NCBI RefSeq assembly: GCF_030412785.1
Contig: NZ_CP125296.1
Location: 1,364,001 to 1,428,000, forward strand
DNA from: Paraburkholderia sabiae
Lineage (GTDB): Bacteria > Pseudomonadota > Gammaproteobacteria > Burkholderiales > Burkholderiaceae
Length of the DNA: 64,000 nt
Direction of reading: 5' to 3'
Positions 34,219-60,732 of this stretch are shown in pieces (position 1 is the first letter of the stretch; each line of letters starts with the position of its first letter). The position numbers and the translations under genes are program-made. The notes below the pieces were generated by a model. The model was given only the letters and a program-made list of their open reading frames with translations. It made no database searches and was not told the origin of the DNA.

Positions 34219-35163
34219 TCAGAACCCTTTGCCGATGTACTGGGCCGCGTTATCTTTCGTGATCAAGGTCGATTGCAGCTTGATGTCTTTGGGAACCGGT
34301 TCGCCTCTCGCAACCTTGTACGCTGTCTGGATTCCCTCAGGAGCGACGAACGGATAGATGAAAGTCGCCGTTAGCTTCCCTTCAGCGACGGACTGGATTG
34401 CGTTGTTCGCCCCGTTAATACCAACGACGATGATACCGTTCAGACGGCCGGCTGCCTCAAGTGCCTGGATTGCCCCAAGCGCCATCTCGTCATCGTGCGC
34501 ATACACCGCCTTGATCTCGCCCGGTTTGAAACGTTGGATCTGGTCTTCCATGAACTTCATCGACTGTTCGCGCAAAAAGTCGCAGTTTTGGAAGGCGACA
34601 ATTCTCAAGCCCGGATATTTTGCGATCGCCTCGCGGAAGCCCTTGTCGCGATCGATAGAAACTGACGCGCCGGCCGTTCCTCCGATCTCGATGATCGCGC
34701 CTTGGCCGTTCAGCTTTTTGGCGATCAGCTCGCCGGCCTGACGTCCGATAGGAAGGTCTTCGGGTCCCACATGCACCGTCACGGGCGTATTGACACGCCG
34801 ATCAAGCGTAACGACCTTGATGCCATGATCCATTGCCTGTTTGACGACGGGTGTCAGCGCCTGTTGGGTTAGCGGACTGATCATCAAAACCTTGACGCCT
34901 TGCGCCATCAGGCTTTCGACATCTGCTGTTTGTCTGGTCGCGTTGTTTTGGCCGTCCGTGACGATCAGCTTTACGTCTGGATAGTGGCTCGCCGCGTACT
35001 TCTTGTTACCTTCGGTTTGCGCTATGCGCCAAGGATGGTTAAGCGTCGACTGGCTAAAGCCGATAACAATTTTGTCATCTGCCATAGCGCACAACGAATA
35101 TGTAGCGACTGTGGCTGTGGCCACTATCGTTAAAACGCGTCGTGTGACTGCCTTCAGGTCCAT
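34219..35163 (-). CDS. Sugar ABC transporter binding protein, copy 1
   Basis: A 314-residue periplasmic protein of the ribose-type (RbsB, Peripla_BP_4) family. A signal peptide of 28 residues ends AMA before DDKIVIGFSQ. The mature region has VLMISPLTQQALTPVV, TLDRRVNTPV and VGINGANNAIQSV. It is very similar over its whole length to the protein at 52172, with the same length. It is encoded at the 3' end of the large minus-strand block but has its own promoter region (35164-35314) and terminator. It is expected to deliver ligand to the permease at 43656 and ATPase at 46983. Confidence 0.9.
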   Translation of the reverse strand: MDLKAVTRRVLTIVATATVATYSLCAMADDKIVIGFSQSTLNHPWRIAQTEGNKKYAASHYPDVKLIVTDGQNNATRQTADVESLMAQGVKVLMISPLTQQALTPVVKQAMDHGIKVVTLDRRVNTPVTVHVGPEDLPIGRQAGELIAKKLNGQGAIIEIGGTAGASVSIDRDKGFREAIAKYPGLRIVAFQNCDFLREQSMKFMEDQIQRFKPGEIKAVYAHDDEMALGAIQALEAAGRLNGIIVVGINGANNAIQSVAEGKLTATFIYPFVAPEGIQTAYKVARGEPVPKDIKLQSTLITKDNAAQYIGKGF

Positions 35164-35179
35164 GATGCTCCTCCAAAGT

Positions 35180-35220
35180 TGCGTCGTATAATGTCAACTA
35201 TAATTAGTACAACGTACTTC
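35180..35220 (-). promoter_or_regulatory. Candidate promoter and operator of binding-protein copy 1
   Basis: Minus-strand sequence before the gene has TTGTAC, a 16-base spacer and TATACG, with an inverted repeat AGTAC-aac-GTACT at 35206-35218 over the -35 area. GGAGGAG stands four bases before the ATG. The repeat differs from the GATAACGTTTTC operators, so this gene may answer to another regulator. Confidence 0.4.
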
Positions 35221-35314
35221 CATTGACATGCGTCGTCATGCTCTCGTTTTATTGCCGGGTTGATGAAATCCAAAACTGTGCGCTGCAACTGATGTTGCAG
35301 CGCTCATAGAGAGA

Positions 35315-36949
35315 TTAGAAAATGAAACCGGTGTTCAAGAATTTCGAGTGATGATCTGAAACAATTGCATTTAGCAGCGCCTTGTTATCGTCTGTTTCTT
35401 TGGTGGCAACCATCGCGCGAATTGAGAATGCCCGGAGCGCATCGGTCACTGAAAGCGTCCCTTCTGCGGAGTCTTTGCGGCCCGCGAAGGGAAAGACGTC
35501 CGGGCCACGCTGGCATTGGGAGTTGATGTTGACCCGACATACCTGATTGACCAAGGGATCGACGAGCGCGCCGATCTGAGCGGGGTCATTTCCGAAAATG
35601 CTGACCTGCTGTCCATGATCGGATGTGATGACATACTCAAGCGGAGTCGCGATGTCCTCGAATGGCATGACCGGAATAATCGGTCCAAACTGCTCTTCGC
35701 GATAGAGCATCATTCCTTCTTCGACCGGGTACACCACGGCTGGGTAGAAGAGCGTCTTGCAAAAAATGCCACCGCCCTTGTTCACGACGTCTGCGCCTCT
35801 TGCTCTCGCATCGTTGATCGCCTCGGTCATGTAGGTCGTGCGATGCATGCCCGGTAGCGGCGTAATCGACACGCCCGGCTCCCACGGCATCCCGACCTTG
35901 AGCGTCTCGAGCGCTGCGGTGAAGCGTTCAAGGAACGTATCGACGATCGACCGGTGCACAATCAGCATCTTGAGAGCGGTGCATCTCTGCCCGTTGAACG
36001 ACAATGCTCCGAGCAGGCACTCCTTCACGGCAAGATCGATGTCGGCGTCTGGCAGCACGATTGCAGCATTTTTGGCATCCAGCCCAAGAATAGCCCGGAG
36101 CCGATGTGACTTCGGGTGTTGTTTTTTCAGATGATCTGCGACCTTGCTGGACCCGATGAGGGCTAGCACGTTCACTTTTCCTGAGGCCAGCATATGCGGC
36201 ACCACGACGGCGCCCGGGGCGTAGATCGTGTTGATGACACCTCTCGGGAACGCCGTGCGAAACGCTTCAAGTAGCGGGTAAAAGAGCAGCGTTCCGTACT
36301 GTGGCGGCTTGAACACCACCGTGTTGCCCATTAGCAAAGCCGGAATGAGCGTGGCGAAGGTCTCGTTCAACGGATAGTTGTATGGACCCATGCACAATAC
36401 GACGCCAAGGGGTGTACGTCGGACCTGGCCGATAGTGCCCTCGGCAAGGGTGAAGCGCGAATTGCTGTTATCCAGTTCTTTCAGCGCCGAGATAGTGTCC
36501 TGCATGTAGCTGACCGTTCGGTCAAACTCCTTTTGAGAGTCGGCAAGGCTTTTGCCGATTTCCCACATGATCAGCTTTACGATCTGGTCCCGCCTGGCCA
36601 CCATACAGCGGATGAAGTCTTGCATGCAGCCGATGCGCTGGGCAACTGTCATGGTTGGCCATTCGCCACGGCCGTGATCGTAAGCGCGTACCGCCGCATC
36701 TAGCGCAGCATCGCTTTCCGTTTCGCCCATGACAGGATAACTGCCGATGGTAAGCTGCTCCACTTCGCCCGACTCCACGCGGACGCAAACCGGGGAGAGG
36801 ACGGTCTTGCAGGTCCCGTCCCATCCCTTCAATTCTCCGTCGATCAAGGATACGCGCTGATGGATCGGCTCACCGAGCCGGGCCGCTTCCGGAATGTCGA
36901 CCATGCGTGGAAACAGTTGCTGCAGATTCTGGATGTCAACTACTGCCAC
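35315..36949 (-). CDS. GapN-like NADP-dependent aldehyde dehydrogenase
   Basis: A 544-residue aldehyde dehydrogenase-superfamily protein resembling non-phosphorylating glyceraldehyde-3-phosphate dehydrogenases. The catalytic Cys lies in SFNGQRCTALK. The usual ELGGK base motif reads GLDAK, so the general base is shifted or absent, a variant I associate with this GapN-like subgroup. The start is GTG at 36949, six bases after AAGGAG. GapN oxidises glyceraldehyde 3-phosphate to 3-phosphoglycerate, but a sugar-derived semialdehyde is possible here. It follows the MFS carrier gene by 64 bases. Confidence 0.8.
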   Translation of the reverse strand: MAVVDIQNLQQLFPRMVDIPEAARLGEPIHQRVSLIDGELKGWDGTCKTVLSPVCVRVESGEVEQLTIGSYPVMGETESDAALDAAVRAYDHGRGEWPTMTVAQRIGCMQDFIRCMVARRDQIVKLIMWEIGKSLADSQKEFDRTVSYMQDTISALKELDNSNSRFTLAEGTIGQVRRTPLGVVLCMGPYNYPLNETFATLIPALLMGNTVVFKPPQYGTLLFYPLLEAFRTAFPRGVINTIYAPGAVVVPHMLASGKVNVLALIGSSKVADHLKKQHPKSHRLRAILGLDAKNAAIVLPDADIDLAVKECLLGALSFNGQRCTALKMLIVHRSIVDTFLERFTAALETLKVGMPWEPGVSITPLPGMHRTTYMTEAINDARARGADVVNKGGGIFCKTLFYPAVVYPVEEGMMLYREEQFGPIIPVMPFEDIATPLEYVITSDHGQQVSIFGNDPAQIGALVDPLVNQVCRVNINSQCQRGPDVFPFAGRKDSAEGTLSVTDALRAFSIRAMVATKETDDNKALLNAIVSDHHSKFLNTGFIF

Positions 36950-37013: not shown

Positions 37014-38291
37014 TCAGCGCGCAGGCGCAAGCGGCACGCTTCGCGCCTGCGGCGCGCGCTTGACGCTCGATGCGAGACAAACGGATACGAGAAGCGACGC
37101 TCCCATGAACAGGTAGGAAGAAGTGGGGTCGCCGGTGAGTCCAGTCAGATAGCCGACGGCGTAGGAGCCCAGAAACGAGCCGAGCGCGCCGACGCTGTTG
37201 ATCAATGCGAGTGCGCCACCTGCGACCGTGCGCGGCAGGACTTCCGGCGCGATCGAGAAAAACGGCGGGAAGACCACATACATCAGAATGCCGGCGACCG
37301 TGAGCAGGCTGAACGACAGATAGAAATTCGACGCACCCACGAAATAAAGCAGGAAGAACGCGATGGCGGCGACAAATAACGGCGCCATGACGAAGAGCTT
37401 CCGGTTCTGGAGGCGATCGGACATCCAGGCGCATGGCAGCATGAAGATCACCGCACCCAGGTAGGGAACCGCAGACAGCCAACCGGTGTGAACCATACTC
37501 AGCGTTGCACCATGCCGGAGAATCGACGGCAACCACAGAAGAAATCCATAAAAGCCGAGGCTGTGGAAAAACAACGTGCCGGCGAGCTTCCACACTGTGA
37601 CCGTGCGGAACGCTTCGCGATAGTTGCGCACGGGCGCGAGACTCTTCTGCTCATCCGCAAGCGTAGTCTCGATCCGCAGCTTTTCATCAGCCGTCAGCCA
37701 CGAGACCTGTGAGGGTTTGTCTCGTGCCGCGGCGAGCCAGACGAATGCCCACACCACTGCGGGCAGACCTTGCGCGATGAACATTGCACGCCATCCCCAC
37801 TCCTGCGTCATGTATCCGGACACGACAGACATCCAGAGCACGGTGGCGGGATTCCCAAGCAGAAATACTGTGTTGGCGCGCGAGCGCTCCTTGCGCGAAA
37901 ACCAGTTAGTCACGTATACGAGCATGCAGGGAAGCACGGCCGCTTCGACAATGCCGAGCGCAAATCGTACCGCCATGAGAGTCGGAATGCTCGAGACAAC
38001 GCCTGTCAGCGCGGCAAGCGCGCCCCATGCGATCAGACTCACGAAAATCAGCTTTCGGACGCTGCGCCGTTCGGCGTAGATGCCCCCGGGAATCTGAAAA
38101 AAGAAGTAGCCGAGAAAGAAGAGAGACCCAATCAGCGATGACGTAGCGTGACTGATACCAAGGTCACGGTCGATTCCTGCTGCGGCTGCAAAGCCGTAAT
38201 TTGCCCTGTCCAGGTAGGCGAGGCTATATGTGATGAAGGCGAGCGGAAGGATGATCCACCATCTCTTTGCGGGCAGGCTTGCGCCAGACAT
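37014..38291 (-). CDS. ACS-family MFS carrier, copy 1
   Basis: A 425-residue transporter with 12 membrane segments. The N-terminus KRWWIILPLAFITYSLAYLD followed by RANYGFAAAAGI is typical of the anion:cation symporter family (GudP, ExuT, LgoT and relatives), which imports hexuronates, sugar acids and organic anions with protons. The start at 38291 follows AGGAG; the frame opens two codons earlier at a TTG. A close paralogue is at 55023. It lies between an SDR and a GapN-like dehydrogenase in a sugar-acid operon. Confidence 0.9.
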   Translation of the reverse strand: MSGASLPAKRWWIILPLAFITYSLAYLDRANYGFAAAAGIDRDLGISHATSSLIGSLFFLGYFFFQIPGGIYAERRSVRKLIFVSLIAWGALAALTGVVSSIPTLMAVRFALGIVEAAVLPCMLVYVTNWFSRKERSRANTVFLLGNPATVLWMSVVSGYMTQEWGWRAMFIAQGLPAVVWAFVWLAAARDKPSQVSWLTADEKLRIETTLADEQKSLAPVRNYREAFRTVTVWKLAGTLFFHSLGFYGFLLWLPSILRHGATLSMVHTGWLSAVPYLGAVIFMLPCAWMSDRLQNRKLFVMAPLFVAAIAFFLLYFVGASNFYLSFSLLTVAGILMYVVFPPFFSIAPEVLPRTVAGGALALINSVGALGSFLGSYAVGYLTGLTGDPTSSYLFMGASLLVSVCLASSVKRAPQARSVPLAPAR

Positions 38292-38486
38292 CGTCAATCT
38301 CCTGTGATTCTAGGTTTTGCGAACGTAAAAAGCGCGGCTGCGGTCGGCACGGAAATACCGGTGCAGACGAGATCACCCTGTCGGGCGCCCCGCCGATGCT
38401 TTGGATGGCATTTCACGTTACGTGACAACGCAGATACATTCGCCAGTCTTGTTCTGAGACTGGGCGAGGCGGGCAATCTAGAGCCG

Positions 38487-39173
38487 TCACCACGGCATAT
38501 CGTTTCTGTCCGTGTCGATGTAGCGCCCGGTGTCCTTGATGGTTGCACCGTCGATGGCAAGCTTGACGAGCCGGGCGCTGTCGTTCGCCAGATTCGGCGC
38601 GTCGGAGCCCCCCATCGATGTACGCATCCATCCCGGGTGAATGAGGAGAACGGTAATTCCGTCTTTCTCCCAGTTCTGCGCGATTCCACGCATCACGCTA
38701 TTGACGGCTGCCTTTGACGAGCAATAGTCGTAAGCAGTCCCCGGGTGACGGGAGACGGAGCCCCAGTCACTCGAGATCGTGATGAGCTTGCTGCTTCCCG
38801 CTGCAACGAGGCTTTGGCGAAGCGCGAACGACATTCGGGCGGGCCCGAGCGTGTTGACACGAAGCGTTGTTTCCCAGTCGTCGAAGGATACGAGATCTGG
38901 AGGTGACCATTTGCGGAAATGCACACCGGCGTTGTTGACCAGAATATCGAGCGACTTGCCCCGTACTGCGTCCGCGAAGGCAGCGACCGAGCCGTCGCGC
39001 GTAACATCGAGCGGTAGCACGGTCACGCCTCGAAACTCCGTAGCAATCTGGTTGATCTCGGCCTTGCCGGGATTCAGACAACCGGCCAGAACAGAATGCC
39101 CTTCGCACGCGTAGAGGCGCGCGAGTTCCAATCCCAAACCTTGTTCCGCTCCCGTGATGGCGATTGTCTTCAT
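38487..39173 (-). CDS. SDR-family oxidoreductase
   Basis: A 228-residue short-chain dehydrogenase. The cofactor loop is ITGAEQGLGLELARLYA (TGxxxGxG), then DILVNNAG, the catalytic Ser in TISSDWGSV and Tyr/Lys in YDYCSSK. It overlaps the Gfo/Idh/MocA stop by four bases (ATGA), so the two are translationally coupled. It likely reduces or oxidises a keto-sugar intermediate made by its partner. About 190 bases separate it from the MFS gene downstream. Confidence 0.85.
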   Translation of the reverse strand: MKTIAITGAEQGLGLELARLYACEGHSVLAGCLNPGKAEINQIATEFRGVTVLPLDVTRDGSVAAFADAVRGKSLDILVNNAGVHFRKWSPPDLVSFDDWETTLRVNTLGPARMSFALRQSLVAAGSSKLITISSDWGSVSRHPGTAYDYCSSKAAVNSVMRGIAQNWEKDGITVLLIHPGWMRTSMGGSDAPNLANDSARLVKLAIDGATIKDTGRYIDTDRNDMPW

Positions 39174-40156
39174 CGATGACCTCCCACACGGCTGACGCCT
39201 GCCTTCGCATAGATAGCGTCGATTGTCATCATGTTGCCCAGCGAGTCCTGACCTTCAGTCGGCAGAGAGTTTCCGTCAACAATGGCCCCAACGAACGCTT
39301 CGATCTGGTAGTCGAATGTTGTCGATCCTGCGACAGTGTATTGGCGCGTAACGCCGTCGACTCGCTCAATGATCGAGTGACCAAGATGAGGCAAGAGGCT
39401 GTTTTCCGCAACGACGGTACCGCGTTCACCCTCAATCGTGAAACGCGCGTGGTACTGCCAGCCCGGTGTCATGCACGCTTCCACACTCGCTTCAACTCCG
39501 GCCGGAAACCGCAATCGCGCTCGCATCTCTTCGTCGCAGCCGTTTGAGGTGACCAGCGCCTCCGCGCTAATCACTTCGGGCTCTGTCCGCAACAACGAAC
39601 GGCACCAATGGACCGGATAGCAGCCCAGTTCAATGAGGGCGCCACCGCCCATTTCGGGATTGCGCCGGAACTCCTCGGGCGCTTCGGGAATCGTGTGATT
39701 GAAGACCGCGCGAAGCGACTTCAACGATCCTAGCCGTCCCGACTCGACGAGATTCAGCAGATGACCGAACACGGGATGATATCGGTCGTGAAAGGCCTCG
39801 ACGATGCGACGGTTAGCACGGTGCGCAGCGCTTTGCATCGCGCGTGCTTCCTGCGCATTCATGGCAAAAGGCTTTTCGCACAGCACGTGTTTTCCGGCCT
39901 CGAGGGCTTTGATCGAAAACTCGGCGTGCAGGTGTGGCGGCAGCGGATTGTAGATGACGTCAATTGAGGAATCGTCCAGCAGAGCTTCATAGCTGTCGTA
40001 CGATCGCGCTATCCCATGCGCCTGTGCGAATGCCGCGGCTACGCCGGGCCGACGCGCTGCCACTGCCGCAATATTAACGTCGTTACGACGGGTTGCTGGT
40101 TCAAGCAGAGCCCAGGGAACAATTCTCGCCGCCCCTAGAATTCCGAATTTCAGCAT
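39170..40156 (-). CDS. Gfo/Idh/MocA-family oxidoreductase
   Basis: A 328-residue NAD(P)-dependent dehydrogenase. The N-terminal Rossmann region (FGILGAARIVPWALL) and the family motif HVLCEKPFAMNAQEA (catalytic Lys in EKP) are clear. The C-terminal alpha/beta domain has IELGCYPVHWCRSLL. Substrates include sugars, inositols and their derivatives, and some members cleave glycosidic bonds by transient oxidation. GGAG lies 11 bases before the ATG at 40156. It is coupled by a four-base overlap to the SDR and sits 46 bases after the kinase gene. Confidence 0.88.
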   Translation of the reverse strand: MLKFGILGAARIVPWALLEPATRRNDVNIAAVAARRPGVAAAFAQAHGIARSYDSYEALLDDSSIDVIYNPLPPHLHAEFSIKALEAGKHVLCEKPFAMNAQEARAMQSAAHRANRRIVEAFHDRYHPVFGHLLNLVESGRLGSLKSLRAVFNHTIPEAPEEFRRNPEMGGGALIELGCYPVHWCRSLLRTEPEVISAEALVTSNGCDEEMRARLRFPAGVEASVEACMTPGWQYHARFTIEGERGTVVAENSLLPHLGHSIIERVDGVTRQYTVAGSTTFDYQIEAFVGAIVDGNSLPTEGQDSLGNMMTIDAIYAKAGVSRVGGHR

Positions 40157-40201
40157 TGCACTTTCTCCAGCGAGCAATCTTTCAGGGTTGAGATGCTGCA
40201 A

Positions 40202-41173
40202 TTAAGCTTGTGTCGCCGCCTCGTGCTGTTCCAGCTTCGCGCGCGACGGCAGGCCTTCCGAATCTCCAATCACCTGGATAGCGAGAGATCCGATCCAGTT
40301 ACCCCGCGCGATTGCTTTCGTGACGGATCGCCTCTCCAGCAGCGCACTGATGACACCAACAGCGAAGCCGTCACCAGCGCCGACGGTGTCAACGACTCTG
40401 CTGACGGGACAGGCCGGCACGACGCCCGCATCTTCGGCATTCTGGAAGTACGCGCCGCGTTCGCCGAGTTTGATAATCACCAGTTTGGCGCCGCGATCGA
40501 GGTAGAACGCAGCGATGTCCTCCGGCGACTCCTTTCCCGTGAGAATTGCCCCTTCACCAAGTCCTGGCATAACGATGTCGGCATGCGACGCCAGATCGTT
40601 GAGAGTGTCGGCCATCTCGGCGCGGCTTGCCCACAATGCCGGTCGCAGATTGGGGTCGAAGGAGATCGTCTTACCTGCCGCGCGCATCTCGCGCGCAGCG
40701 TGGAACGACAGTGCTCGCGTCTCGCTTGAGAGCGCAGGGTTAATTCCCGTCAGATGAAGGTGCCGCGCACGAGTGAAATAGGACGGAACGAAGTCCGAGA
40801 CAGACAGCGCACTGGCGGCGGATCCCCTCCTGAAATACTCTGTTTTCGGGTCGCTTCCGTCGTCGCTCTTCGTTTTGAGCATCATGCCTGTCGGGCGCGA
40901 CGGATCAACCTCTACGCACGTGGCGTCAATCCCTTCCGCTGACAGCGTATCCAGCACAAACTGTCCAAAGGAATCATTGCCCACGCGACTGACCCAGCCC
41001 ACCTTATGGCCCAGCCGTGACAGCCCGATCGCAACGTTGAGTTCGGCGCCGGCGGCACGCTTGACGAACCGGCTCACGTTGGCCAGAGGCCCACTTTCGG
41101 ATGCAGCGAAAAGTGCCATCGCTTCGCCGATGGTCACTACGTCGAGCGGGGTAGGCATTTCGGAATCTCGCAT
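40202..41173 (-). CDS. PfkB-family sugar kinase, 2-keto-3-deoxygluconate kinase-like
   Basis: A 323-residue ribokinase-family enzyme. The N-terminal VVTIGEAMALFA and FVKRAAGAELNVAIGLSRLG match KDG kinases, and the ATP-site signature DTVGAGDGFAVG holds the catalytic Asp near residue 265. KDG kinase makes 2-keto-3-deoxy-6-phosphogluconate for an Entner-Doudoroff aldolase; no such aldolase is adjacent, although a DHDPS-family lyase lies at 59758. The start is taken at 41173; an ATG at 41158 is equally possible. It is part of the operon with GH88 and Gfo/Idh/MocA. Confidence 0.85.
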   Translation of the reverse strand: MRDSEMPTPLDVVTIGEAMALFAASESGPLANVSRFVKRAAGAELNVAIGLSRLGHKVGWVSRVGNDSFGQFVLDTLSAEGIDATCVEVDPSRPTGMMLKTKSDDGSDPKTEYFRRGSAASALSVSDFVPSYFTRARHLHLTGINPALSSETRALSFHAAREMRAAGKTISFDPNLRPALWASRAEMADTLNDLASHADIVMPGLGEGAILTGKESPEDIAAFYLDRGAKLVIIKLGERGAYFQNAEDAGVVPACPVSRVVDTVGAGDGFAVGVISALLERRSVTKAIARGNWIGSLAIQVIGDSEGLPSRAKLEQHEAATQA

Positions 41174-41254
41174 TTGCAGATGGGGTTGATTCGACAGCAG
41201 ATACCGCCGTCTGCCCAGCGGACAGAACGACGGCAAGCCAGAGAGACAGCGTGT

Positions 41255-42367
41255 TCAGTGGGTATTGCTTTTACCCGACGTCGCGTCGCGAAGTGCCAGC
41301 AGCGCCTTCAGGAAGTAGTAGTCCCCGTATCCGGTCGACTCGTCGATGCCTAGCCCATGCGGCAGGTCCGCCGTGGCGTGTGCGAGGATCGATTCGGCTT
41401 CCGACGAGGCAAGGCATTGCGCCGACAGCGCGTCGAGAATGGAACGGGCCAGCTGCAGATAGCGGTCGTTTTTCGTCACGCCTGCGAGTCGGATCAGGCC
41501 GTACGCCGAAATCGCGCCAGCGGAGGAGTCAAGCGGCTCATCGTCTCCGGTCACCGCGTAATCCCATTTCGGAATGAAGCTATCCTTCAGTTGCGACTCG
41601 ATGAAAGCCGCAACCCGCTCGGCTGCTGCAACGTATTCGGCCCGACCCGTCATGTCCGCGAGCATGGAGAGACCTGCTACCGCCCAGCCCTGGCCGCGCG
41701 ACCACGCACTTTCGGGAGCCTTGCCCTGATAGGTGTCGCCACGCATCGGTGCTCCGGTCTTCTCGTCGAACACATAGACGTGATAGACGGACCCGTCCTT
41801 GCGCTGATGGTTGCGAAGGGCGGTTTCAGTGTGCCTGTACACGACATCGAGCAGTTCGTTGCTACCACCGTTCTGGGCGGCCCATACGAGCAGGGGCAGA
41901 TTCATCAACGTGTCGATGAGCACCGAGCCGGCCCAGTTCTGTCCGCCGAAGAATCCCCAGCCGGGAATGAAGCCGGCGTCCTTGTTGAACTGTTTTGCGA
42001 GGCTTTCGGCCGCGCGCACGGCAGCGGCGCGATATTCGTCCTTGCCCGTCAGTCGCCAACCGACCACGGCGGTTGGATAGAACATGAAGCCGAGGTCGTG
42101 ATTAACTTCATCACTCGCGCGCGGCAGAAGACGCTGCGTTAGACGCTCTGCCTCGAGGAGAAATTTCTCGTCTTTCGTTTCCTTGTACGCCAGCCACTGA
42201 AGCCCGGTCCAGAAGCCGCCCGTCCACACGCCGTCTTCGGTGTAGACCCATTTGCCGCCCTTCGTGATGTGCGGAAAATCAGCTTGCCTTGCGCGTTGCC
42301 GATCGATCCGGTCGATAACAAACTGGATCGTCGGTTCGATGAAAGAGTTGTCTTGTGCGTTCGTCAT
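41255..42367 (-). CDS. GH88/105-type unsaturated uronyl hydrolase
   Basis: A 370-residue alpha/alpha-barrel enzyme of the unsaturated glucuronyl hydrolase family. Two acidic residues match the catalytic pair of the Bacillus enzyme (Asp88 and Asp149): D91 in NHDLGFMF and D152 in LIDTLMNLPLL. GVWTGGFWTGLQWLAY and SAWSRGQGWAVAGLSML are also characteristic. No signal peptide is visible, so it acts in the cytosol on imported oligosaccharides with a 4,5-unsaturated uronic residue. Its product would feed the KDG-type kinase encoded next. No lyase that would create the unsaturated end is in the window. Confidence 0.88.
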   Translation of the reverse strand: MTNAQDNSFIEPTIQFVIDRIDRQRARQADFPHITKGGKWVYTEDGVWTGGFWTGLQWLAYKETKDEKFLLEAERLTQRLLPRASDEVNHDLGFMFYPTAVVGWRLTGKDEYRAAAVRAAESLAKQFNKDAGFIPGWGFFGGQNWAGSVLIDTLMNLPLLVWAAQNGGSNELLDVVYRHTETALRNHQRKDGSVYHVYVFDEKTGAPMRGDTYQGKAPESAWSRGQGWAVAGLSMLADMTGRAEYVAAAERVAAFIESQLKDSFIPKWDYAVTGDDEPLDSSAGAISAYGLIRLAGVTKNDRYLQLARSILDALSAQCLASSEAESILAHATADLPHGLGIDESTGYGDYYFLKALLALRDATSGKSNTH

Positions 42368-48476: not shown

Positions 48477-48577
48477 AATGACTCCCGGTTCGCCTGATCG
48501 CGATCTGGGCCCGACCGTGGTATCTGCCACGGCAAACGAGCGGTTGAATGCAGCCAGTAGTGACAGAATGCGCTGCT

Positions 48578-48589
48578 GATAACGTTTTC
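48578..48589. promoter_or_regulatory. LacI-type operator, ABC operon side
   Basis: GATAACGTTTTC, one of four exact copies in the window (others at 48704, 54443 and 54518). It is a near-palindrome around AACGTT, 102 bases upstream of the ABC ATPase start. It shares the extended form TGATAACGTTTTCTC with the 54443 copy. Confidence 0.7.
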
Positions 48590-48619
48590 TCAATCAGGAT
48601 GAACCCTGGCGGATAGTCA

Positions 48620-53172: not shown

Positions 53173-54411
53173 TTACTGCCCGGACTGCTCTTGCCAGTCG
53201 CGTCGTTCTCCCGACCTGATCGCCTTATGCGCTTCGAGCGTCACGACGTCTGCCTCGTCATATCCCAGCTCGCTGAGAATTTCGCGAGTGTCCTGACCGG
53301 GGCGCAGCGCGAGGCGGCGCAAGGGAAGGACCTGACCGTCGTAACGAACGGGGTGATTGACGAGCACGACTTCGGAGCCGTTGATGTCGACGCTTCGGAA
53401 AACGCGGTTGTGCTGGATCTGCGGATCATTGCGCAGGTCACCATACGTCTGGACCTTTGCGAACCACACGCCGTGCGCGTCAAGCGGCCCGGCAACTTCG
53501 TCGAAGGAGCGGGTGCGAAGCACCTCCTGAAGCGCATCGGCATAACGGTCACGTTCGGAATACAGATCGATATCCGATAGCTGTCGCAGCGGCTCACTAT
53601 CGAGCGCCTCTGCCAGCACCTTCGCATCCGTCAACGGGAGAACGATCGCGCTGTCGGCGAGCTGATACAGGCCATAGGGAGCCTGATGCAGCCACGTCGC
53701 GAGTCGGGGGTGGCGGGTGAAGCGGTCGGTATCGAATTTGCCGGTAAGGAAGCTGGTGATGCCTTCCATCTGGAGGTCGATCCCCGCGTTCAGCAGGTTG
53801 CCTTCGACAAGACCGCCCTGGCCGGTAGCGGCGCGCTTGACGAGTGCCGCCAGCACGCCCATCGCGAGCAACGCTGCCCCGTGCTGGTCGATTACGGCGC
53901 CGCCGACGGGTGTCGGCGACGAACCGGTAGCGGCCGCAAGCCCGCATCGAGCCTGAATGAGCAGGTCCTGTCCCGGCTTCTCGACGAGCGGGCCCGACGA
54001 GCCGAAACCGGTCGCTGCGGCATAGATGATGTCTGCCTTCAGGCGTTTGCAGTCCTCGAACCCAAACCCAAGCCGCTCGAGCACGCCAGGTCGGTAATTC
54101 TGGATGACAACGTCCGCGTTCGCGATGAGCTTTTCGACAACCTGCCTGCCTTCAGCCGATTTCAGATCGACTGCGAGGCTGCGGCAGTTCCGGTTCGCGG
54201 CGAGGAAGAACACGCTGGTTTCGTCTACATAAAGATCGGCGCCGGACCAGTGACGCTCGTAAGCGCCCGAGATCGGTTCGACCTTGACCACCTCTGCGCC
54301 GAGATCGGCGAGGTACTGCACGGCGGCAGGCCCCTGAAGGAAATGGCAAAAGCTGACAATTCGCTTTCCATGCAGGGGAAGAGCGGCGGTTGCGCCCGAT
54401 TGGTCCGACAT
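53173..54411 (-). CDS. Class III CoA-transferase (CaiB/BaiF), copy 2
   Basis: A 412-residue family III CoA-transferase. The candidate nucleophile is D175 in AVIDQHG; RHWSGADLYVDE, LAANRNCRS and PGQDLLIQARCG match copy 1. The start is the ATG at 54411, seven bases after GGAG; the frame opens four codons earlier at a TTG. It is first gene of the operon with binding protein copy 2, MaoC and GMC, behind a well-formed promoter with a LacI-type operator at its start site. The acids it uses are unknown. Confidence 0.88.
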   Translation of the reverse strand: MSDQSGATAALPLHGKRIVSFCHFLQGPAAVQYLADLGAEVVKVEPISGAYERHWSGADLYVDETSVFFLAANRNCRSLAVDLKSAEGRQVVEKLIANADVVIQNYRPGVLERLGFGFEDCKRLKADIIYAAATGFGSSGPLVEKPGQDLLIQARCGLAAATGSSPTPVGGAVIDQHGAALLAMGVLAALVKRAATGQGGLVEGNLLNAGIDLQMEGITSFLTGKFDTDRFTRHPRLATWLHQAPYGLYQLADSAIVLPLTDAKVLAEALDSEPLRQLSDIDLYSERDRYADALQEVLRTRSFDEVAGPLDAHGVWFAKVQTYGDLRNDPQIQHNRVFRSVDINGSEVVLVNHPVRYDGQVLPLRRLALRPGQDTREILSELGYDEADVVTLEAHKAIRSGERRDWQEQSGQ

Positions 54412-54442
54412 TCCAGTCTCCAAAATTCGTGAAAGGATGTGT

Positions 54443-55022: not shown

Positions 55023-56300
55023 TCAGTCAGCTGTCGCCAGCGGCATGATCCGTGCGCGCTCAGTGCGCTTCACACTGGAGGCGAATAGTGCGGACACAAC
55101 GAGCGCTGCCCCCATGAAGAGGTACGAAGAGGCGGGATCTCCGGTCAATCCGGTCAGGTAGCCGACGGCATAGGAGCCGAGAAACGAGCCAAGCGCGCCG
55201 ATGCTATTGATGAGCGCGATGGCGCCGCCTGCCACTTCACGAGGCAGCACCTCGGGAGCAATCGAGAAAAACGGTGCGAACATCACGTACATCGAGATTC
55301 CAGCGACCGTCAGCAGACTGAACGACAGCCAGAAATTCGACGTGCCCACGACGTACAGCAGGAAGAAGGCAGCAGCAGCAATCGACAAGGGCACTGCGAC
55401 AAACAGCCTGCGGTTCTGCAGCCGATCGGACAGCCAGGAGCACGGCAGCATGCAAAGGACCGCACCGAAGTAAGGGATAGCGGAGAGCCATCCCGTGTTG
55501 ACCATACTCAGCGATGCCCCGTGCCGGAGAATCGAGGGCAGCCACAGCAGAAAACCATAGAAGCCGAGGCTTTGGAAAAACAGCGTGCCCGTGAGCTTCC
55601 AGACCGTCCTGCTTCGAAACGCCTCGCGATAGTTTTTCACTGGAGCCAGCGAGCGCTGTTCGTCAGCAAGCGTCGTTTCGATATGCAGCTTCTCTTCTGC
55701 CGTAAGCCAGCTAACCTGCGAAGGCTTGTCGCGCACGACGGCGAGCCACACGAATGCCCACAGTACGGCCGGCAGGCCCTGAGCGATGAACATGGCGCGC
55801 CATCCCCACTCCTGCACCAGGTAGCCGGAGACAACCGACATCCACAGGACGGTCGCCGGGTTGCCAAGCAGGAAGACGGTGTTAGCGCGGGATCGCTCTT
55901 TCCTGGAGAACCAGTTGGTCAGATAGACGATCATGCAGGGGAACACCGCGGCTTCCACGATCCCGAGTCCGAACCGTACTGCCATGAGCGCGGGGATATT
56001 CGAGACGACGCCAGTGAGTGCGGCCAGGCCGCCCCAGGCGATGAGGCTGACGAAGATCAGCCGGCGCACGCTCCGCCTTTCGGCATAGATACCGCCCGGC
56101 ACCTGAAAAAAGAAGTAGCCGAGGAAAAAGAGGGAACCGATCAGCGACGATGTGGAGCGACTGATGCCCAGATCGTGGTCGATGCCAGCGGCCGCAGCGA
56201 AACCGTAATTTGCACGATCCAGATACGCGAGGCTGTAGGTGATGAAAGCGATCGGCAGGATGATCCACCACCGTTTCGCGGGAAGCGTTTTTCCGTTCAT
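55023..56300 (-). CDS. ACS-family MFS carrier, copy 2
   Basis: A 425-residue transporter closely similar to copy 1 at 37014 over its whole length (KRWWIILPIAFITYSLAYLD, then RANYGFAAAAGIDHDLGIS). It belongs to the anion:cation symporter family of sugar-acid and organic-anion carriers. The start at 56300 follows AGGAG; the frame opens six codons earlier. It stands 262 bases after the shikimate-type dehydrogenase gene, with an AT-rich probable promoter in between, so it may be transcribed alone or with that operon. Confidence 0.9.
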   Translation of the reverse strand: MNGKTLPAKRWWIILPIAFITYSLAYLDRANYGFAAAAGIDHDLGISRSTSSLIGSLFFLGYFFFQVPGGIYAERRSVRRLIFVSLIAWGGLAALTGVVSNIPALMAVRFGLGIVEAAVFPCMIVYLTNWFSRKERSRANTVFLLGNPATVLWMSVVSGYLVQEWGWRAMFIAQGLPAVLWAFVWLAVVRDKPSQVSWLTAEEKLHIETTLADEQRSLAPVKNYREAFRSRTVWKLTGTLFFQSLGFYGFLLWLPSILRHGASLSMVNTGWLSAIPYFGAVLCMLPCSWLSDRLQNRRLFVAVPLSIAAAAFFLLYVVGTSNFWLSFSLLTVAGISMYVMFAPFFSIAPEVLPREVAGGAIALINSIGALGSFLGSYAVGYLTGLTGDPASSYLFMGAALVVSALFASSVKRTERARIMPLATAD

Positions 56301-56562
56301 ACATCGTCTCCTATTCATTTGTGCAGCAGCAAGGTTTTCCGTTCCCAGGCGATCCCTGACTACTTCGCGTCGCCTGTTTGCTCATCTCTCAGGTTACTGT
56401 TTATTGACCAATTGAATTAGGGGTACTAATTAATATGAATTTATGATGTTGTTTAAATTCCATGCTGGCGCCACCTCCTGATCTTTCGCTTGCGGCTGAC
56501 CTCTCACCGAAACGTTGTTTCGCGTCCCGACGCGTTCTGGCAGCGCGTCGAGAAGCGTGAGG

Positions 56563-57378
56563 CTACGCGGGCATACTCCAGGACAATGTTCGCGGCCGAA
56601 TGCCGAAAAATTCCACCATGAGATCGAGCACGCCATCGAACATTTGTGCGCCGGTCATCGTGTCACAGCCGCGAGCGTGAGCGGCTTTGAGCAGCGGCGA
56701 TACCACGGGCACCGTGATGACATCGCCCACAAACGTTGTCGGTTTCAGGCGATCGGCGAGTACCGGCAGGGGATCTTCCTCACGCATACCCATTGGAGTT
56801 GCGTTGATGACGAGGTCCATGTCGGTCGGATCGGCTGGTCCGACTGTGACAGGGGCCTTGTCCAGGCGCGTGAGCATCTCGGCCAGCCTTTCCGCGCGTC
56901 GGGGATCCCGATCGTGCACGCACAGTTCAGCTATGCCCTCCTGCAAGAGGGCTTCGCCTATTGCGCACCCGGCACCGCCTGCGCCGACCAGAAGCACCCG
57001 GCGGTGCTCTATAGCGCAGCCTGCTTTGCGCAAGGCGGCGGTATAGCCGCAGCCGTCCACCATATCTCCGTGCCAGGTGCCGTTGGCGTTGCGCCGCATG
57101 ACGTTTGCTACCTGCAAAAAATGCGAACGGTCCGACGCAGTGTCGCTATGCCGATAGCCCGCGAATTTGTGCGGCACGGTCAGCACAACCCCATCGACGT
57201 TGTGTGCGTGTTTAAGGCCATCGAGAAACGCATCGACTCCGTCCGTATCAACATTGAGAGGCAGCAATGCGGCATTGACGCCGAGTTGCGAGAACACGCT
57301 GTTGAACGCCCCGGGCGACTTCACCTGCGCAATCGGGTCGCCGACAATAAAGTACAGCCGTGTGTTTCCGTCGATCAT
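56563..57378 (-). CDS. Shikimate/quinate dehydrogenase-family enzyme
   Basis: A 271-residue AroE-type dehydrogenase. The catalytic Lys71 (LTVPHKFAGY) and Asp105 (TWHGDMVDG) are present, and the dinucleotide motif is VLLVGAGGAGCAIGEAL. After the second beta strand it reads HDRDPRRAE, with acidic residues 156 and 158 where NADP-specific AroE has an NRT motif. This favours NAD and a catabolic role like quinate dehydrogenases. The substrate-binding Ser pair of AroE (SxS near residue 15) is not visible (QVKSPGAF), so a related hydroxy-acid is possible. It is last of the DHDPS operon, 12 bases after YciI. Confidence 0.82.
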   Translation of the reverse strand: MIDGNTRLYFIVGDPIAQVKSPGAFNSVFSQLGVNAALLPLNVDTDGVDAFLDGLKHAHNVDGVVLTVPHKFAGYRHSDTASDRSHFLQVANVMRRNANGTWHGDMVDGCGYTAALRKAGCAIEHRRVLLVGAGGAGCAIGEALLQEGIAELCVHDRDPRRAERLAEMLTRLDKAPVTVGPADPTDMDLVINATPMGMREEDPLPVLADRLKPTTFVGDVITVPVVSPLLKAAHARGCDTMTGAQMFDGVLDLMVEFFGIRPRTLSWSMPA

Positions 57379-57390
57379 GAATGTCGCCTT

Positions 57391-57714: not shown

Positions 57715-57715
57715 G

Positions 57716-58921
57716 TCAGGCCTCTGCATGATCGGGCACGCCAACCACGCGTTGCTCGATGAGAGCGTCGATCGCGTCGTCCGGATAGCCGAGTTCGGTC
57801 AGGATCTCGCGGGACTGTGCGCCAAGTTTTTGAGGGGGAAGATACACAGGCGGCGCCTGATCGTTATAGCGTACCGGGTGCGATAGCACCCGCACCGGCG
57901 TGCCGGCGCTCGGCAATGCCGTTTCGATCAGATGGCCGTTGTGCTTGACTTGTGGGTCTTCGGACATCATCGCGTAATCGTTCACGCGGGTGTGCCAGAT
58001 ATCCAGTTCGGCGAGCCGCGCGAGCAGCTCATTGACGGAAAACCGAAGGCAGTGCTGTTCAACCAGGGCGGATATCTCTCTTGTTTTCGCGAACACGTCG
58101 CCCTCCGTGAACTCGCTGAGAGCGGGGCAATCCAGCGCACGCGCCAGCATGGCGGGCGTCGATAGCGAGATAGCCACGCTCCCGCCCTTGGCAGCGAACA
58201 CGCCGTATCCACCTGGCGCTGACCAACCCGCTGTTGCGCCCGGCTGTCGGATGGATGCTGGCCTTTTGCCGTTGAGGAAACTGGTGATGCCTTCCTGCTG
58301 CAGGTCGAGCGCTGCGCCGAGCAAGCTCACGTCCACCCGGCATCCTTCTTCGCTTTGTGCTCTGCCGAGCAACGCGGCCATGATTCCCAGTGCAAAGAGG
58401 GCTGCGCCGTGATGGTCCACTACCGAGACGCCCACGGCGCGCGATTCATCAGGCTCGCGGCCAGTGATAGCCGCAATGCCTGACATCGCCTGAAGCAAAA
58501 GGTCCTGTCCGGGCCGATCCTTGTAGGGGCCGTGCGCGCCATAGCCGGTTGCCGCGGCGTAGATCAACTTGGGGTTGAGCTTTTTGGCCTGCTCGTATCC
58601 CAGTCCGAGCCGGTCCATGACGCCAGGACGAAAGTTCTCGGCGAGCACATCGGCCGACGCGATCAGTTTGCGCGCTACGTCTTTGCCTGACTCACTCTTC
58701 AGATCCAGTGCCAGGCTGCGCTTGTTGCGATTGGCGAACGCGAAAGTCAGCGAGTCGCCATCGATGAATTTGTTGCCGGAGCTCCAGTGACGCTGGAAAG
58801 CGCCGTCCAGTGACTCGACGGCAATCACGTCGGCGCCAAGGTCGGCCAGGATCTGGATGCCCAGCGGCCCCATGACGAAATGGTTGAAGCTGACGACGCG
58901 TATGCCTTTGAGGAATTGCAT
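57716..58921 (-). CDS. Class III CoA-transferase (CaiB/BaiF), copy 3
   Basis: A 401-residue family III CoA-transferase, the most divergent of the three in the window. The candidate nucleophile is D169 in SVVDHHG; it keeps the RHWS motif (FQRHWSSGNKFIDGD), FANRNKRS and PGQDLLLQAMSGI. The start at 58921 is the ATG before MQFLKGIRVVSF; the frame extends 46 codons upstream without conserved sequence. It lies between the crotonase and YciI genes, consistent with activation of an acid to a CoA thioester that the crotonase then processes. Confidence 0.88.
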   Translation of the reverse strand: MQFLKGIRVVSFNHFVMGPLGIQILADLGADVIAVESLDGAFQRHWSSGNKFIDGDSLTFAFANRNKRSLALDLKSESGKDVARKLIASADVLAENFRPGVMDRLGLGYEQAKKLNPKLIYAAATGYGAHGPYKDRPGQDLLLQAMSGIAAITGREPDESRAVGVSVVDHHGAALFALGIMAALLGRAQSEEGCRVDVSLLGAALDLQQEGITSFLNGKRPASIRQPGATAGWSAPGGYGVFAAKGGSVAISLSTPAMLARALDCPALSEFTEGDVFAKTREISALVEQHCLRFSVNELLARLAELDIWHTRVNDYAMMSEDPQVKHNGHLIETALPSAGTPVRVLSHPVRYNDQAPPVYLPPQKLGAQSREILTELGYPDDAIDALIEQRVVGVPDHAEA

Positions 58922-58958
58922 TTTTGTCCCGTGAATTAACGTGAAGGAAGCGGGCAGT

Positions 58959-59750
58959 TCAGCGGCCCTTGAAGACGGGCGCACGCTTTTCCGTGAAAGC
59001 GCGGATCGCCTCTGCGCGGTCTTCCGTTGCGAAAACTGCTGCGGTGGCTGTGCGTTCAAACTTCAGTCCGGCAGAAAGCGGCATGTCAAAAGCATTCAGC
59101 ACCGCCTGCTTTGCTATGCGCACGGCCTGGGGTGATTTGCCGGCGATGATGGTCGCAAGACCCAGTGCCCGCGGAAGCAATTCGTCGGAAGCCGTGACCT
59201 CGCTAACCAGACCGATGCGCCTGGCTTCGCTGGCACTGATCGCTTCGCCGGTAAGAATCATCTGCATGGCGAGGGACTTTCCGATGATCCGGGGCAGCCG
59301 CTGCGTACCGCCATCGCCCGGGAATGCACCAAGATTGATTTCAGGAAGCCCCAGCTTCGCGTCTTCTGCGGCGATCGCGATGTCGCACGTCATAGCGAGT
59401 TCGAGTCCGCCGCCCAGCACGTATCCGTTGATCGCGGCGATCAGCGGTTTGGAAAACGCGGAGATGGCGTCTTGTGCGGCTAGTCGTCGTGGATCCTCGT
59501 AGGCGCCAATGCCTCGGCCCATGTCCGAGATATCGGCGCCAGCACAAAACGCCCGGCCGCTGCCTGTCAGAATCACGCATTTGATGTCGTCGTTGCGTTC
59601 CGCCGACGTGAGTGCGCGTTGCAGCGCGCCTAGCAGTTCAAGGCTAAGCGCGTTCAGCTTGTGCGGCCGGTTTAACTGTAGAAGCATCACGCCTGGAGCG
59701 GGCGTCGACGTCAGCAGGATCGGATCGTTGTCGGATGCAGTCGAGGTCAT
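58959..59750 (-). CDS. Enoyl-CoA hydratase/isomerase
   Basis: A 263-residue crotonase-family enzyme. The oxyanion-hole segment is GRAFCAGADISDM, and both catalytic glutamates of true hydratases are present: E118 in VLGGGLELAM and E137 in GLPEINLGAFPGDGGTQRL. It hydrates an enoyl-CoA (or runs a retro-aldol or isomerisation on a related thioester). The start at 59750 is eight bases after the stop of the lyase gene; a longer frame lies inside that gene. Part of the operon headed by the DHDPS-family gene. Confidence 0.87.
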   Translation of the reverse strand: MTSTASDNDPILLTSTPAPGVMLLQLNRPHKLNALSLELLGALQRALTSAERNDDIKCVILTGSGRAFCAGADISDMGRGIGAYEDPRRLAAQDAISAFSKPLIAAINGYVLGGGLELAMTCDIAIAAEDAKLGLPEINLGAFPGDGGTQRLPRIIGKSLAMQMILTGEAISASEARRIGLVSEVTASDELLPRALGLATIIAGKSPQAVRIAKQAVLNAFDMPLSAGLKFERTATAAVFATEDRAEAIRAFTEKRAPVFKGR

Positions 59751-59757
59751 ATCGTTT

Positions 59758-60732
59758 TCAGGCACTGGTGAGTTGCGCTGCTTCGGTGGCTCGTTCGCTG
59801 CCGAGCAACCCTGCACGGATCAAGGCATCGCGGACCTTACGAAGCTCCGTTTCGTCGAGCTTCATCAATGGCGGCCGCACAGTCGCACGCGGGAGTTTTC
59901 CGAGCATCACGAGCGCTTCCTTCATCCGGTTATGCATATCAACCCAGGGCTCTGAATAAAACGCTTCCGTGAGCGGGAACATGCGTTCCTGCAGTTGCCG
60001 GGCCGCCTTGAGATCATCAGACTTCACGGCGTCATGCATGTTCGACTGCAACTCTGCTGCGACGCTACCCATACCGGACAACAGGCCATCGGCACCGACC
60101 GCCAACGACGCCATCAGCCAGGCACTGTGCGTGGTGAAGACGGCGACCCTCGGAGTACGCGCATGCAGCAGACGCAACTGGCGTTCATGTAGCTGGACGT
60201 CGCCGCAGTTGTCCTTGATAGCCTTCACACTGCTCACCTCGTCGATGATTTTCAGCAGCGTCGGCAGTGGGTAGGACAGGCCGCTCTTGACGGGAAACTG
60301 GTACAGCACGATCGGCAGGCCATCGCTGGCTTCTTCAATGCGCCTGAAGAAATCGACCAGCATGCTGGCTCGCTGTCCGATGGAGATCACCGCAGGCGGA
60401 AAGACGAGCAGAGCGGACGCGCCGGCGCGACGCGACATCTGGGCGATGCGCATGGCTTCGAGCCCGCTTTCCGTGTAGACGCCGTTTATGAGCGGGACCC
60501 GTTCTCCTATCTCATCGACAGCGATTTCGAGGACGCGTTGCTGCTCGTCGAATGTGCACGAAGAAACCTCGGATGCGTGACCATTGACCGTGATGGCCGT
60601 GACCCCTGGCGCACGGGCTACGTCGTCCAGGTGCCGTCGCAAGCTCGGCTCGTCGATGGTGAGATCGTCGTTGAACGGCAGCAGGCAGGCGGGAATCACG
60701 CCTCCAGCAAGGAAAGCCGGGTGCTTTGACAT
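59758..60732 (-). CDS. DHDPS-family lyase/aldolase
   Basis: A 324-residue class I aldolase of the dihydrodipicolinate synthase family. The Schiff-base Lys is probably K173 (VKAIKDNCGD) and the partner Tyr Y144 (IVLYQFP). Family members cleave or form pyruvate aldols: KDG aldolase, N-acetylneuraminate lyase, 5-dehydro-4-deoxyglucarate dehydratase and aromatic hydratase-aldolases. It is slightly longer than DHDPS itself and no lysine genes are nearby, so a catabolic aldolase or dehydratase is likely. AAGGA precedes the ATG. It heads a five-gene operon behind a TGCAATCGATTGCA operator. Confidence 0.87.
   Translation of the reverse strand: MSKHPAFLAGGVIPACLLPFNDDLTIDEPSLRRHLDDVARAPGVTAITVNGHASEVSSCTFDEQQRVLEIAVDEIGERVPLINGVYTESGLEAMRIAQMSRRAGASALLVFPPAVISIGQRASMLVDFFRRIEEASDGLPIVLYQFPVKSGLSYPLPTLLKIIDEVSSVKAIKDNCGDVQLHERQLRLLHARTPRVAVFTTHSAWLMASLAVGADGLLSGMGSVAAELQSNMHDAVKSDDLKAARQLQERMFPLTEAFYSEPWVDMHNRMKEALVMLGKLPRATVRPPLMKLDETELRKVRDALIRAGLLGSERATEAAQLTSA

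Follow-up and report, generated by a model that had tools for sequence, protein, structure and literature searches.

We describe a block of genes at positions 34219-60732 of a 64,000-nucleotide stretch of the Paraburkholderia sabiae genome (contig NZ_CP125296.1, positions 1,364,001 to 1,428,000; this whole stretch is called the window below) in which a GH88-type unsaturated uronide hydrolase stands among three type III CoA-transferases (CoAT1-3) and two dehydratases, one of the crotonase and one of the MaoC type. The linkage of CoA-transferase genes to GH88 genes of this clade goes beyond chance, and the conserved unit appears from its sequences to combine CoA transfer, 3-hydroxyacyl-CoA dehydration and unsaturated uronide hydrolysis. 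The best single explanation, to which we assign a probability of roughly 0.47, is a lyase-free cleavage of glycosides by way of a CoA thioester, in which the CoA chemistry would act on the sugar before GH88 does. The gene families that a first-pass annotation had named in the block, all on the minus strand, were without exception recovered with profile models, and those on which the argument turns are listed here.

41255..42367, minus strand: GH88-type unsaturated uronide hydrolase (PF07470, 63.3 bits), of a discrete clade; on inspection by eye a signal peptide is not apparent.
42385..43659, minus strand: CoAT1, type III CoA-transferase (PF02515, 297.6 bits), with D184, RHWS and PGQDLL.
53173..54423, minus strand: CoAT2, type III CoA-transferase (PF02515, 272.4 bits), with catalytic Asp, RHWS and PGQDLL retained.
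57716..59059, minus strand: CoAT3, type III CoA-transferase (PF02515, 312.5 bits), with the same motifs; its real start is probably downstream of the start of the open reading frame.
58959..59816, minus strand: crotonase (PF00378, 234.6 bits), the proposed 4-OH dehydratase.
51657..52112, minus strand: MaoC-type hydratase/dehydratase (PF01575, 69.9 bits), with relatives in loci L007, L008, L016 and L017 at 64-87% identity.
50006..51649, minus strand: GMC alcohol oxidoreductase, BetA-like, proposed for C6-OH oxidation (NF002550, 567.5 bits, below the cut-off of 605; 60-87% identity in L007, L008, L016 and L017).
45488..46972, minus strand: ALDH1, BetB-like aldehyde dehydrogenase, proposed to turn the C6 aldehyde into the acid (PF00171, 552.4 bits; 74-91% identity in L007 and L008).
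46983..48593, minus strand: RbsA-type ABC ATPase, 90% identity in L007.
43656..44642, minus strand: RbsC-type permease (PF02653).

Nine genes run from 48593 to 38487 in the order rbsA, ALDH1, HAD phosphatase, rbsC, CoAT1, GH88, PfkB, Gfo/Idh/MocA and short-chain dehydrogenase (SDR); as the gaps between them are only -4 to 30 bases, they likely form a single transcript. Within this packed operon CoAT1 sits between rbsC, which it overlaps by 4 bases, and GH88, from which it is separated by 17. Downstream of the nine genes, spaced 64 to 189 bases, follow a major facilitator superfamily (MFS) transporter, a GapN-like dehydrogenase and binding protein 1. A second and looser group extends from 60732 to 50006 and is composed of DHDPS, crotonase, CoAT3, a shikimate dehydrogenase-like gene, a further MFS transporter, CoAT2, binding protein 2, MaoC and GMC.

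The association was tested by searching about 20 kb around each GH88 gene (about 10 kb each way) for a CoA-transferase, either type III or the unrelated type I, together with a crotonase or MaoC dehydratase, using profile models at E 1e-10. With models that were built from module loci and may be less sensitive elsewhere, the pair was found at all 13 clade loci, from alpha-, beta- and gammaproteobacteria (11 of 11 before L173 and L174 were added), at two of 41 other GH88 loci (L191 and L192, from the genome family of Devosia), at none of 20 loci of the sister family GH105, and in two of 40 arbitrary windows set by fixed offsets with no random draw (0/20 in the own genome and 2/20 in genomes other than the own one, almost all from the same family, here meaning Burkholderiaceae). 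A chance cluster was rejected on these counts, 13/13 standing against 2/40 windows and 2/41 other GH88 loci; the Fisher value of 9.5e-11 overstates independence because the loci are related. The 13 clade loci leave out the window, L006 at a scaffold end, L009, L015 and L020 on contigs below 5 kb, and the clade match G1551, and L173 and L174 were held out in gene context only, their possible counterparts P0049 and P0057 being rows of alignment A1. The 41 other loci comprise four from plasmids, 19 rows of a family search (33.6 to 69.6 bits, the own gene aside) that were taken as GH88 and 18 chosen by hand from about 100 non-clade matches, the GH105 loci were chosen by hand among the stronger rows, and three control stretches (L089, L095 and L113) were shorter than 20 kb. 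The neighbourhood search for GH88 beside CaiB/BaiF genes in other genomes that the first-pass annotation had proposed is thereby positive. It is very improbable that catabolic islands merely collect GH88, CaiB and crotonase genes without a joint function: CaiB genes are certainly numerous, with about two dozen PF02515 genes in the 9.9 Mb own genome (28 match rows, some being pieces of one gene) of which some are clustered, but neither the 13/13 over three proteobacterial classes against the control counts nor the place of CoAT1 in the tightly spaced operon, flanked by rbsC and GH88, would be expected from such collecting.

Divergent same-family GH88 loci had first been fetched as controls; the pair was present in 14 of these 15, and since they thus carried CoA genes themselves new control loci were taken. 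L074, which has the pair, and L079, the only one without it, are counted in these 15 and in neither group of the 13 against 41 comparison. Among the divergent loci, each of the eight type B stretches holds a type III transferase, MaoC, crotonase and DctM, and the type C loci (5/5) hold a type I transferase and MaoC. L065-L069, L076-L078 and L191 point to a wider CoA-linked uronide system: in these loci GH88 is accompanied by TRAP importer genes, MaoC, crotonase and a type III transferase, to which L065 adds an AraC regulator and an acyl-CoA dehydrogenase. In a quick tree L191 and L192 group with types B and C. The CoA-linked GH88 proteins form several lineages of the GH88 tree, with 34 of the 38 unlinked GH88 rows forming one other, and the CoA-link label changes six times, at least five changes being forced by supported branches, though a single early gain with losses is also possible.

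The window GH88 protein exceeds the PF07470 cut-off of 26.6 bits by a wide measure, and its best solved relatives are unsaturated glucuronyl hydrolases (UGL; 1vd5, E 8.5e-56). Its residues D91, D152, H196, Q214, R224 and W228 align with UGL D88, D149, H193, Q211, R221 and W225, and eight UGL residues (W42, F46, D88, D149, H193, Q211, R221 and W225) are retained in all 12 clade proteins and all eight type B proteins compared. We take Gln211, Arg221 and Trp225 to be ligand residues of UGL. Asp149, His193, Asp88, Phe46 and Trp42 are described as functional residues in the available part of the UGL literature (PMC4528949). From these residues the window GH88 is predicted to hydrolyse a 4,5-unsaturated uronide. 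Only clade and type B proteins were counted as canonical, because those of type C and of L074 and L079 are without an equivalent of UGL D88, and the chemistry of the latter proteins may differ from that of UGL. A GH88-like lineage with Phe, Gln and Lys for Asp88, His193 and Gln211 is found with a type I or III CoA-transferase and MaoC in L070-L073, L075 and L192, and possibly acts on a CoA-linked sugar acid by another reaction.

PF02515 covers the full length of CoAT1-3 (272-312 bits), the catalytic Asp is retained in all three, and CoAT1 D184 corresponds by offset to the catalytic Asp of Frc, which we take to be D169. The RHWS motif and PGQDLL block which had been noticed as common to the three enzymes are indeed present in each. 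PGQDL occurs in 19 of the 19 type III transferases of loci counted as module, leaving out L001 and L024 which are copies of the window's own gene, against none of 10 others, for which the fair contrast is 0/7, two of the 10 belonging to pair-bearing L074 and one (L039) being cut by an edge beside a type B-like GH88; RHWS is found in six of the 19. The carnitine, formyl/oxalate, mesaconate and glutarate type III subfamilies were rejected for the window transferases, as all scores stay below the NCBIfam cut-offs (best 195.4 bits against 750; at most 93.9 bits against 413 for carnitine transferase NF002914). Both conserved Glu of crotonases, presumably catalytic, are retained in 20 of 20 aligned crotonases including that of the window.

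The GH88 gene is rare, with no close relative among 57 genomes of the same genus (best 34% identity), and a scan of 84,980 species genomes gave 15 clade loci (L006-L020), L021-L023 being outside the clade. In a protein search the best 120 of 841 GH88 relatives had 52-91% identity, the named ones belonging to Burkholderiaceae, Enterobacterales and Alphaproteobacteria, and among the named sources of proteins related to GH88 and to CoAT1 are Caballeronia, Paraburkholderia and Burkholderia sp. H160. An evenly drawn class sample searched with alignment A1 gave weak fragments only, besides the own gene, and plasmid GH88 matches, four of which served as controls, were all below 60% identity. Burkholderia sp. 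H160 (L007) shares with the window the gene order between MaoC and the GapN-like gene, with identities of 78-95%. No binding protein 1 was found after its GapN-like gene, and the second gene group is beyond the fetched stretch. In farther relatives gene order dissolves while the functions persist. In Devosia (L016) and an alphaproteobacterial metagenome-assembled genome (MAG; L017), GH88 is surrounded by RbsABC, HAD, MaoC, GMC, an aldehyde dehydrogenase (ALDH), a crotonase and a type III transferase. A crotonase accompanies the unrelated type I CoA-transferase (PF01144; assigned by Pfam in L011 and L013 and by similarity in L018) in Limobrevibacterium, a MAG of the Burkholderiales and a further proteobacterial MAG. 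Unrelated families interchange, type III for type I transferase and crotonase for MaoC, with both activities persisting. Of the two clade loci of Raoultella, L012 has a type I transferase; in L014 a crotonase and a type III transferase precede GH88, and another crotonase, paired with a type I transferase, follows it. Next to GH88 the same two arrangements are found in L173 and L174 of the Enterobacterales genome G1280. Raoultella and G1280 each have a pair of clade loci that differ in the transferase beside GH88, type I in one and type III in the other, as if for two substrates. A third, non-clade GH88 of Raoultella (L175) has neither transferase nor dehydratase nearby.

A uronide is a 3-hydroxy acid, the C4-OH being beta to the C6 carboxyl. 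Loss of the 4-OH would hence be an ordinary 3-hydroxyacyl-CoA dehydration, and a transferase with a dehydratase would yield the very substrate of GH88. The reactions, their substrates and their order, all of which we infer, would be as follows. The RbsABC-type importer would take up an intact small glycoside, whose C6-OH GMC and ALDH1 would oxidise to the carboxyl of a glycosiduronic acid. Where the importer is of an acid type, the uronide would be imported directly and the C6 oxidation could be skipped. The CoA-transferase would then form the uronyl-CoA, from which the crotonase, MaoC or both would eliminate the 4-OH to give the 4,5-unsaturated uronyl-CoA, and the transferase would pass the CoA on to the next uronide in a CaiB/CaiD-like cycle, freeing the unsaturated uronide. 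GH88 would hydrate its enol-ether double bond, releasing the aglycone and 4-deoxy-5-keto-uronate, which SDR, PfkB, an aldolase and GapN would carry to central metabolism, and no polysaccharide lyase would be needed. Since crotonases are (3S)-specific and the gluco-configured C4 is S, the presence of a crotonase may indicate glucuronides, and that of MaoC a substrate of another configuration. That such a CoA-thioester dehydration of saturated glycosiduronic acids, joined to GH88, emerged or was disseminated among alpha-, beta- and gammaproteobacteria, its transferases and dehydratases being unrelated and interchangeable, is a tentative proposition, which we would put a little short of even.

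The distribution of the oxidising enzymes bears on this route. GMC is present in five of five loci with an RbsABC importer, the window included and the importer being called from an RbsA model score above 400 bits, against one of the nine clade loci without RbsABC (L008), and ALDH in five of five against three of nine (L008, L010 and L019), which fits an oxidation that is needed only upon uptake of a neutral glycoside. FAD-binding, fumarate-reductase-like flavoproteins are encoded near GH88 at 12319-13833 of L010 and 16818-18893 of L014. The six small loci L011, L012, L014, L018, L173 and L174 hold transferase, crotonase and GH88, and the models found neither GMC nor ALDH in them; the recognisable pathway genes of the smallest loci are importer, CoA-transferase, crotonase and GH88. 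In L011, L012, L014 and L018 the part of the neighbours that was scanned consists of regulators and transporter parts, an RraA-like protein, a peptidase, a flavoprotein and an aldo-keto reductase; neither a thiolase nor a 3-hydroxyacyl-CoA dehydrogenase was seen in that part (in L173 and L174 no neighbour was scanned). The first-pass annotation had placed the CoA chemistry on the aglycone: GH88 would free it, GMC and ALDH would oxidise it to an acid, and the CoA-transferases, MaoC and crotonase would degrade its CoA thioester. All the enzyme classes for this are present in the window, the acyl-CoA dehydrogenase of L065 looks like beta-oxidation, and the enzymes required could lie elsewhere in the genomes with small loci; against it stand the six loci with transferase, crotonase and GH88 in which GMC and ALDH were not found, the result for thiolase and 3-hydroxyacyl-CoA dehydrogenase in the scanned neighbours, and the origin of the unsaturated uronide, which the scheme leaves unexplained. 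We therefore regard it as unlikely, and place the CoA on the sugar because the smallest loci hold too little for beta-oxidation of an aglycone. What stands as likely of the earlier pathway is the import of a small glycoside, a GH88-type cleavage and a 2-keto-3-deoxygluconate (KDG)/2-keto-3-deoxy-6-phosphogluconate (KDPG)-like fate of the sugar; the part in which CoA-transferases serve the aglycone is not well supported.

A second question is where an unsaturated uronide would otherwise come from. The lyase search covered the families PF07940 and PF02278. No heparinase II/III-type gene (PF07940) was found in the own genome; Lyase_8 (PF02278) gave nothing anywhere, controls included, and is for that reason uninformative. 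Among genomes with ordinary GH88 heparinase II/III is present in G1017 and G1141 and not in G1140, and the type B genomes G607 and G711 are without it. One could suppose a pathway beside GH88 in which unsaturated uronides made by lyases are activated as CoA thioesters, and crotonase or MaoC then adds water to give the saturated uronides. Enoyl-CoA hydratases favour hydration, both dehydratase types accompany GH88 and heparinase II/III-family genes occur in five of nine other clade genomes, all in favour of such a salvage; we consider it improbable all the same, since the salvage and GH88 would draw on one and the same substrate, no role would be left for the alcohol oxidase and the aldehyde dehydrogenase, and the own genome has no gene of the heparinase II/III type.

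Several observations weigh against the lyase-free CoA-thioester route. Heparinase II/III-family genes in the five clade genomes (G1185, G1188, G1189, G1191 and G1192), with a weak match of 62 bits in G1189 about 40 kb from a clade GH88, make a lyase source of the unsaturated uronides there conceivable, and if polysaccharide lyases did supply GH88, the presence of the CoA genes would have to be explained in some other way. The window crotonase falls apart from those of the other clade loci, 12 of 13 of which make up two further tree groups, and joins the type B crotonases of L069, L077 and L078 (support 99/98). Three transferases and two dehydratases in the window exceed what the scheme needs, and it needs neither the acyl-CoA dehydrogenase of L065 (type B) nor the AMP-ligase and iron-type alcohol dehydrogenase of L071 (type C); the shikimate dehydrogenase-like, HAD and Gfo proteins have no role in it either. 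L008 holds GMC and ALDH with a TRAP importer, and L010 and L019 hold ALDH without RbsABC. In type C proteins Phe, Gln and Lys replace UGL Asp88, His193 and Gln211, and L074 and L079 carry Ser for Asp88. Lastly, no report of uronyl-CoA esters was found in the literature searched, subscription papers and preprints being outside its scope.

The remaining genes of the block and its border are these.

34219..35163, minus strand: RbsB-type binding protein 1 (PF13407).
52172..53116, minus strand: RbsB-type binding protein 2 (PF13407), paralogous to the first.
44673..45491, minus strand: HAD-IIB phosphatase within the operon (PF08282; 78% identity in L007, 33% in L016 and L017).
40202..41236, minus strand: PfkB sugar kinase, KDG-kinase-like (PF00294, 213.9 bits).
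39170..40201, minus strand: Gfo/Idh/MocA oxidoreductase (PF01408; 62-82% identity in L007, L016 and L017).
38487..39173, minus strand: SDR (PF00106).
35315..36949, minus strand: ALDH2, GapN-like NADP glyceraldehyde-3-phosphate dehydrogenase of 544 aa (PF00171), with a Variovorax relative.
37014..38297, minus strand: MFS transporter of the sugar-acid (ACS) type (PF07690; TIGR00893, 263.1 bits against a cut-off of 395).
55023..56318, minus strand: second MFS transporter of the sugar-acid (ACS) type (PF07690; TIGR00893, 274 bits against 395).
56563..57378, minus strand: shikimate-dehydrogenase-like protein (PF08501, PF01488).
59758..60732, minus strand: DHDPS-family aldolase/dehydratase (PF00701, 132 bits).
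48728..49822, plus strand: LacI-type regulator (PF00356), which stays beside the module in near relatives (87% identity in L007, 74% in L008).
61023..62138, minus strand: LacI-type regulator (PF00356) adjoining the second gene group.

The first-pass gene list was accurate in what it named; it had missed the SDR, the shikimate dehydrogenase-like gene and the two ACS-type transporters, and left the LacI regulators unmentioned. A ribose operon was rejected, since the Rbs equivalog models score below cut-off (RbsB 179.1 and 196.3 bits against 337, RbsC 268.2 against 398, RbsA 527.5 against 745), and the importer is probably of the RbsABC class with a ligand other than ribose. Both of the aldehyde dehydrogenases reported for the block do belong to PF00171, ALDH1 being BetB-like; the 544-aa gene proved to have 78.5% DNA identity over 1.4 kb to a Variovorax gene annotated as NADP-dependent glyceraldehyde-3-phosphate dehydrogenase, which was all that a near DNA search of plasmids usefully returned. 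As that Variovorax gene lies near zwf/eda/edd, ALDH2 was dropped as an aglycone enzyme, which it probably is not, and its kinship fits an aldol cleavage of KDPG. The Variovorax plasmid concerned (L084, 3453-16070) carries a GapN-like gene together with zwf, eda, edd and a sugar ABC importer; an IS6 transposase comes next. The PfkB protein does not reach the KDG kinase equivalog NF040938 (186.6 bits against 400). The shikimate dehydrogenase-like gene was rejected as a constant member, its 46-52% relatives in the clade genomes G1186 and G1187 being without other close window relatives beside them. The transferase and dehydratase might also come after GH88 and handle 4-deoxy-5-keto-uronate, or a piece of it, in place of the KDG route. 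No KduI-family gene (PF04962, which cannot separate KduI from IolB) is present in the window, the two matches of the own genome lying elsewhere, and this would suit such an order. A 2-keto acid, which the product of GH88 is, makes an unusual CoA substrate, and the kinase, GapN and aldolase-type gene of the window point to a phosphorylated route, so that we hold this order to be slightly more improbable even than the salvage of lyase products.

Elsewhere in the window an IS21-type istA/istB pair (Mu-transpos_C_2, rve, IstB_IS21) is found at 12966-15320, about 19 kb from the block, an AMP-binding CoA ligase beside a TauD-type dioxygenase at 22631-25466 ahead of it, and a separate sugar-acid group at 27327-33682 with a galactarate/altronate dehydratase-like gene, an FAD oxidoreductase, an IlvD/Edd dehydratase and a LacI regulator.

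If the lyase-free route via a CoA thioester is correct, it would represent a new chemical logic in carbohydrate breakdown, in which fatty-acid chemistry, the CoA thioester and beta-dehydration, primes the cleavage of a glycosidic bond. GH88 would then serve small glycosides without a polysaccharide lyase, which would help to explain why unsaturated-uronide hydrolases are kept in some soil and plant bacteria with no evident lyase, would give a function to a marked CaiB/BaiF subfamily, and would caution against inferring the use of glycosaminoglycans or gellan from GH88. As enol-ether hydration should depend little on the leaving group, the route could give access to glycosides left untouched by ordinary hydrolases. 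The first-pass annotation knew of no described pathway with this gene set, and the literature searched agrees: nothing joining an unsaturated glucuronyl hydrolase with a CoA-transferase/enoyl-CoA hydratase was found in it, and papers naming both GH88 and a CoA transferase were, as judged by title, unrelated. The component families are known, and we could not find the recurring three-function module and the route it implies described in that literature. Were the association alone accepted, it would be a new variant of GH88 catabolic loci.

Among known systems, CaiB and CaiD of the E. coli cai operon resemble the proposed route in that a CoA-transferase and an enoyl-CoA hydratase interconvert a 3-hydroxy acid and an enoate with cycling of the CoA, and CaiD requires CaiB for “CoA-cycling between products and substrates”, according to the accessible part of that report (PMC2131755). 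The window pair differs in being tied to GH88 and sugar importers, with a cyclic sugar acid as proposed substrate, and a carnitine or oxalate system is rejected by the subfamily scores. Mesaconate CoA-transferase and mesaconyl-CoA hydratase are likewise a transferase paired with a hydratase (PMC5592240); no link to glycosides is seen in the available part of that source, and in the window NF041294 gives at most 162.3 bits against a cut-off of 700. The lyase-linked GH88 loci share fold family and catalytic residues (UGL), but their unsaturated uronides are taken as lyase-derived, as with the heparinase II/III gene near GH88 in A. vitis, and 39 of the 41 non-clade loci have no transferase/dehydratase pair. 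The 3-keto-glycoside pathways (OGE) resemble the proposed route in that oxidation of the sugar sets up a cleavage without ordinary hydrolysis; in the accessible description (PMC10628242) C3 is oxidised and the aglycone eliminated, whereas the present route would oxidise C6 and, with activation by CoA, eliminate the 4-OH.

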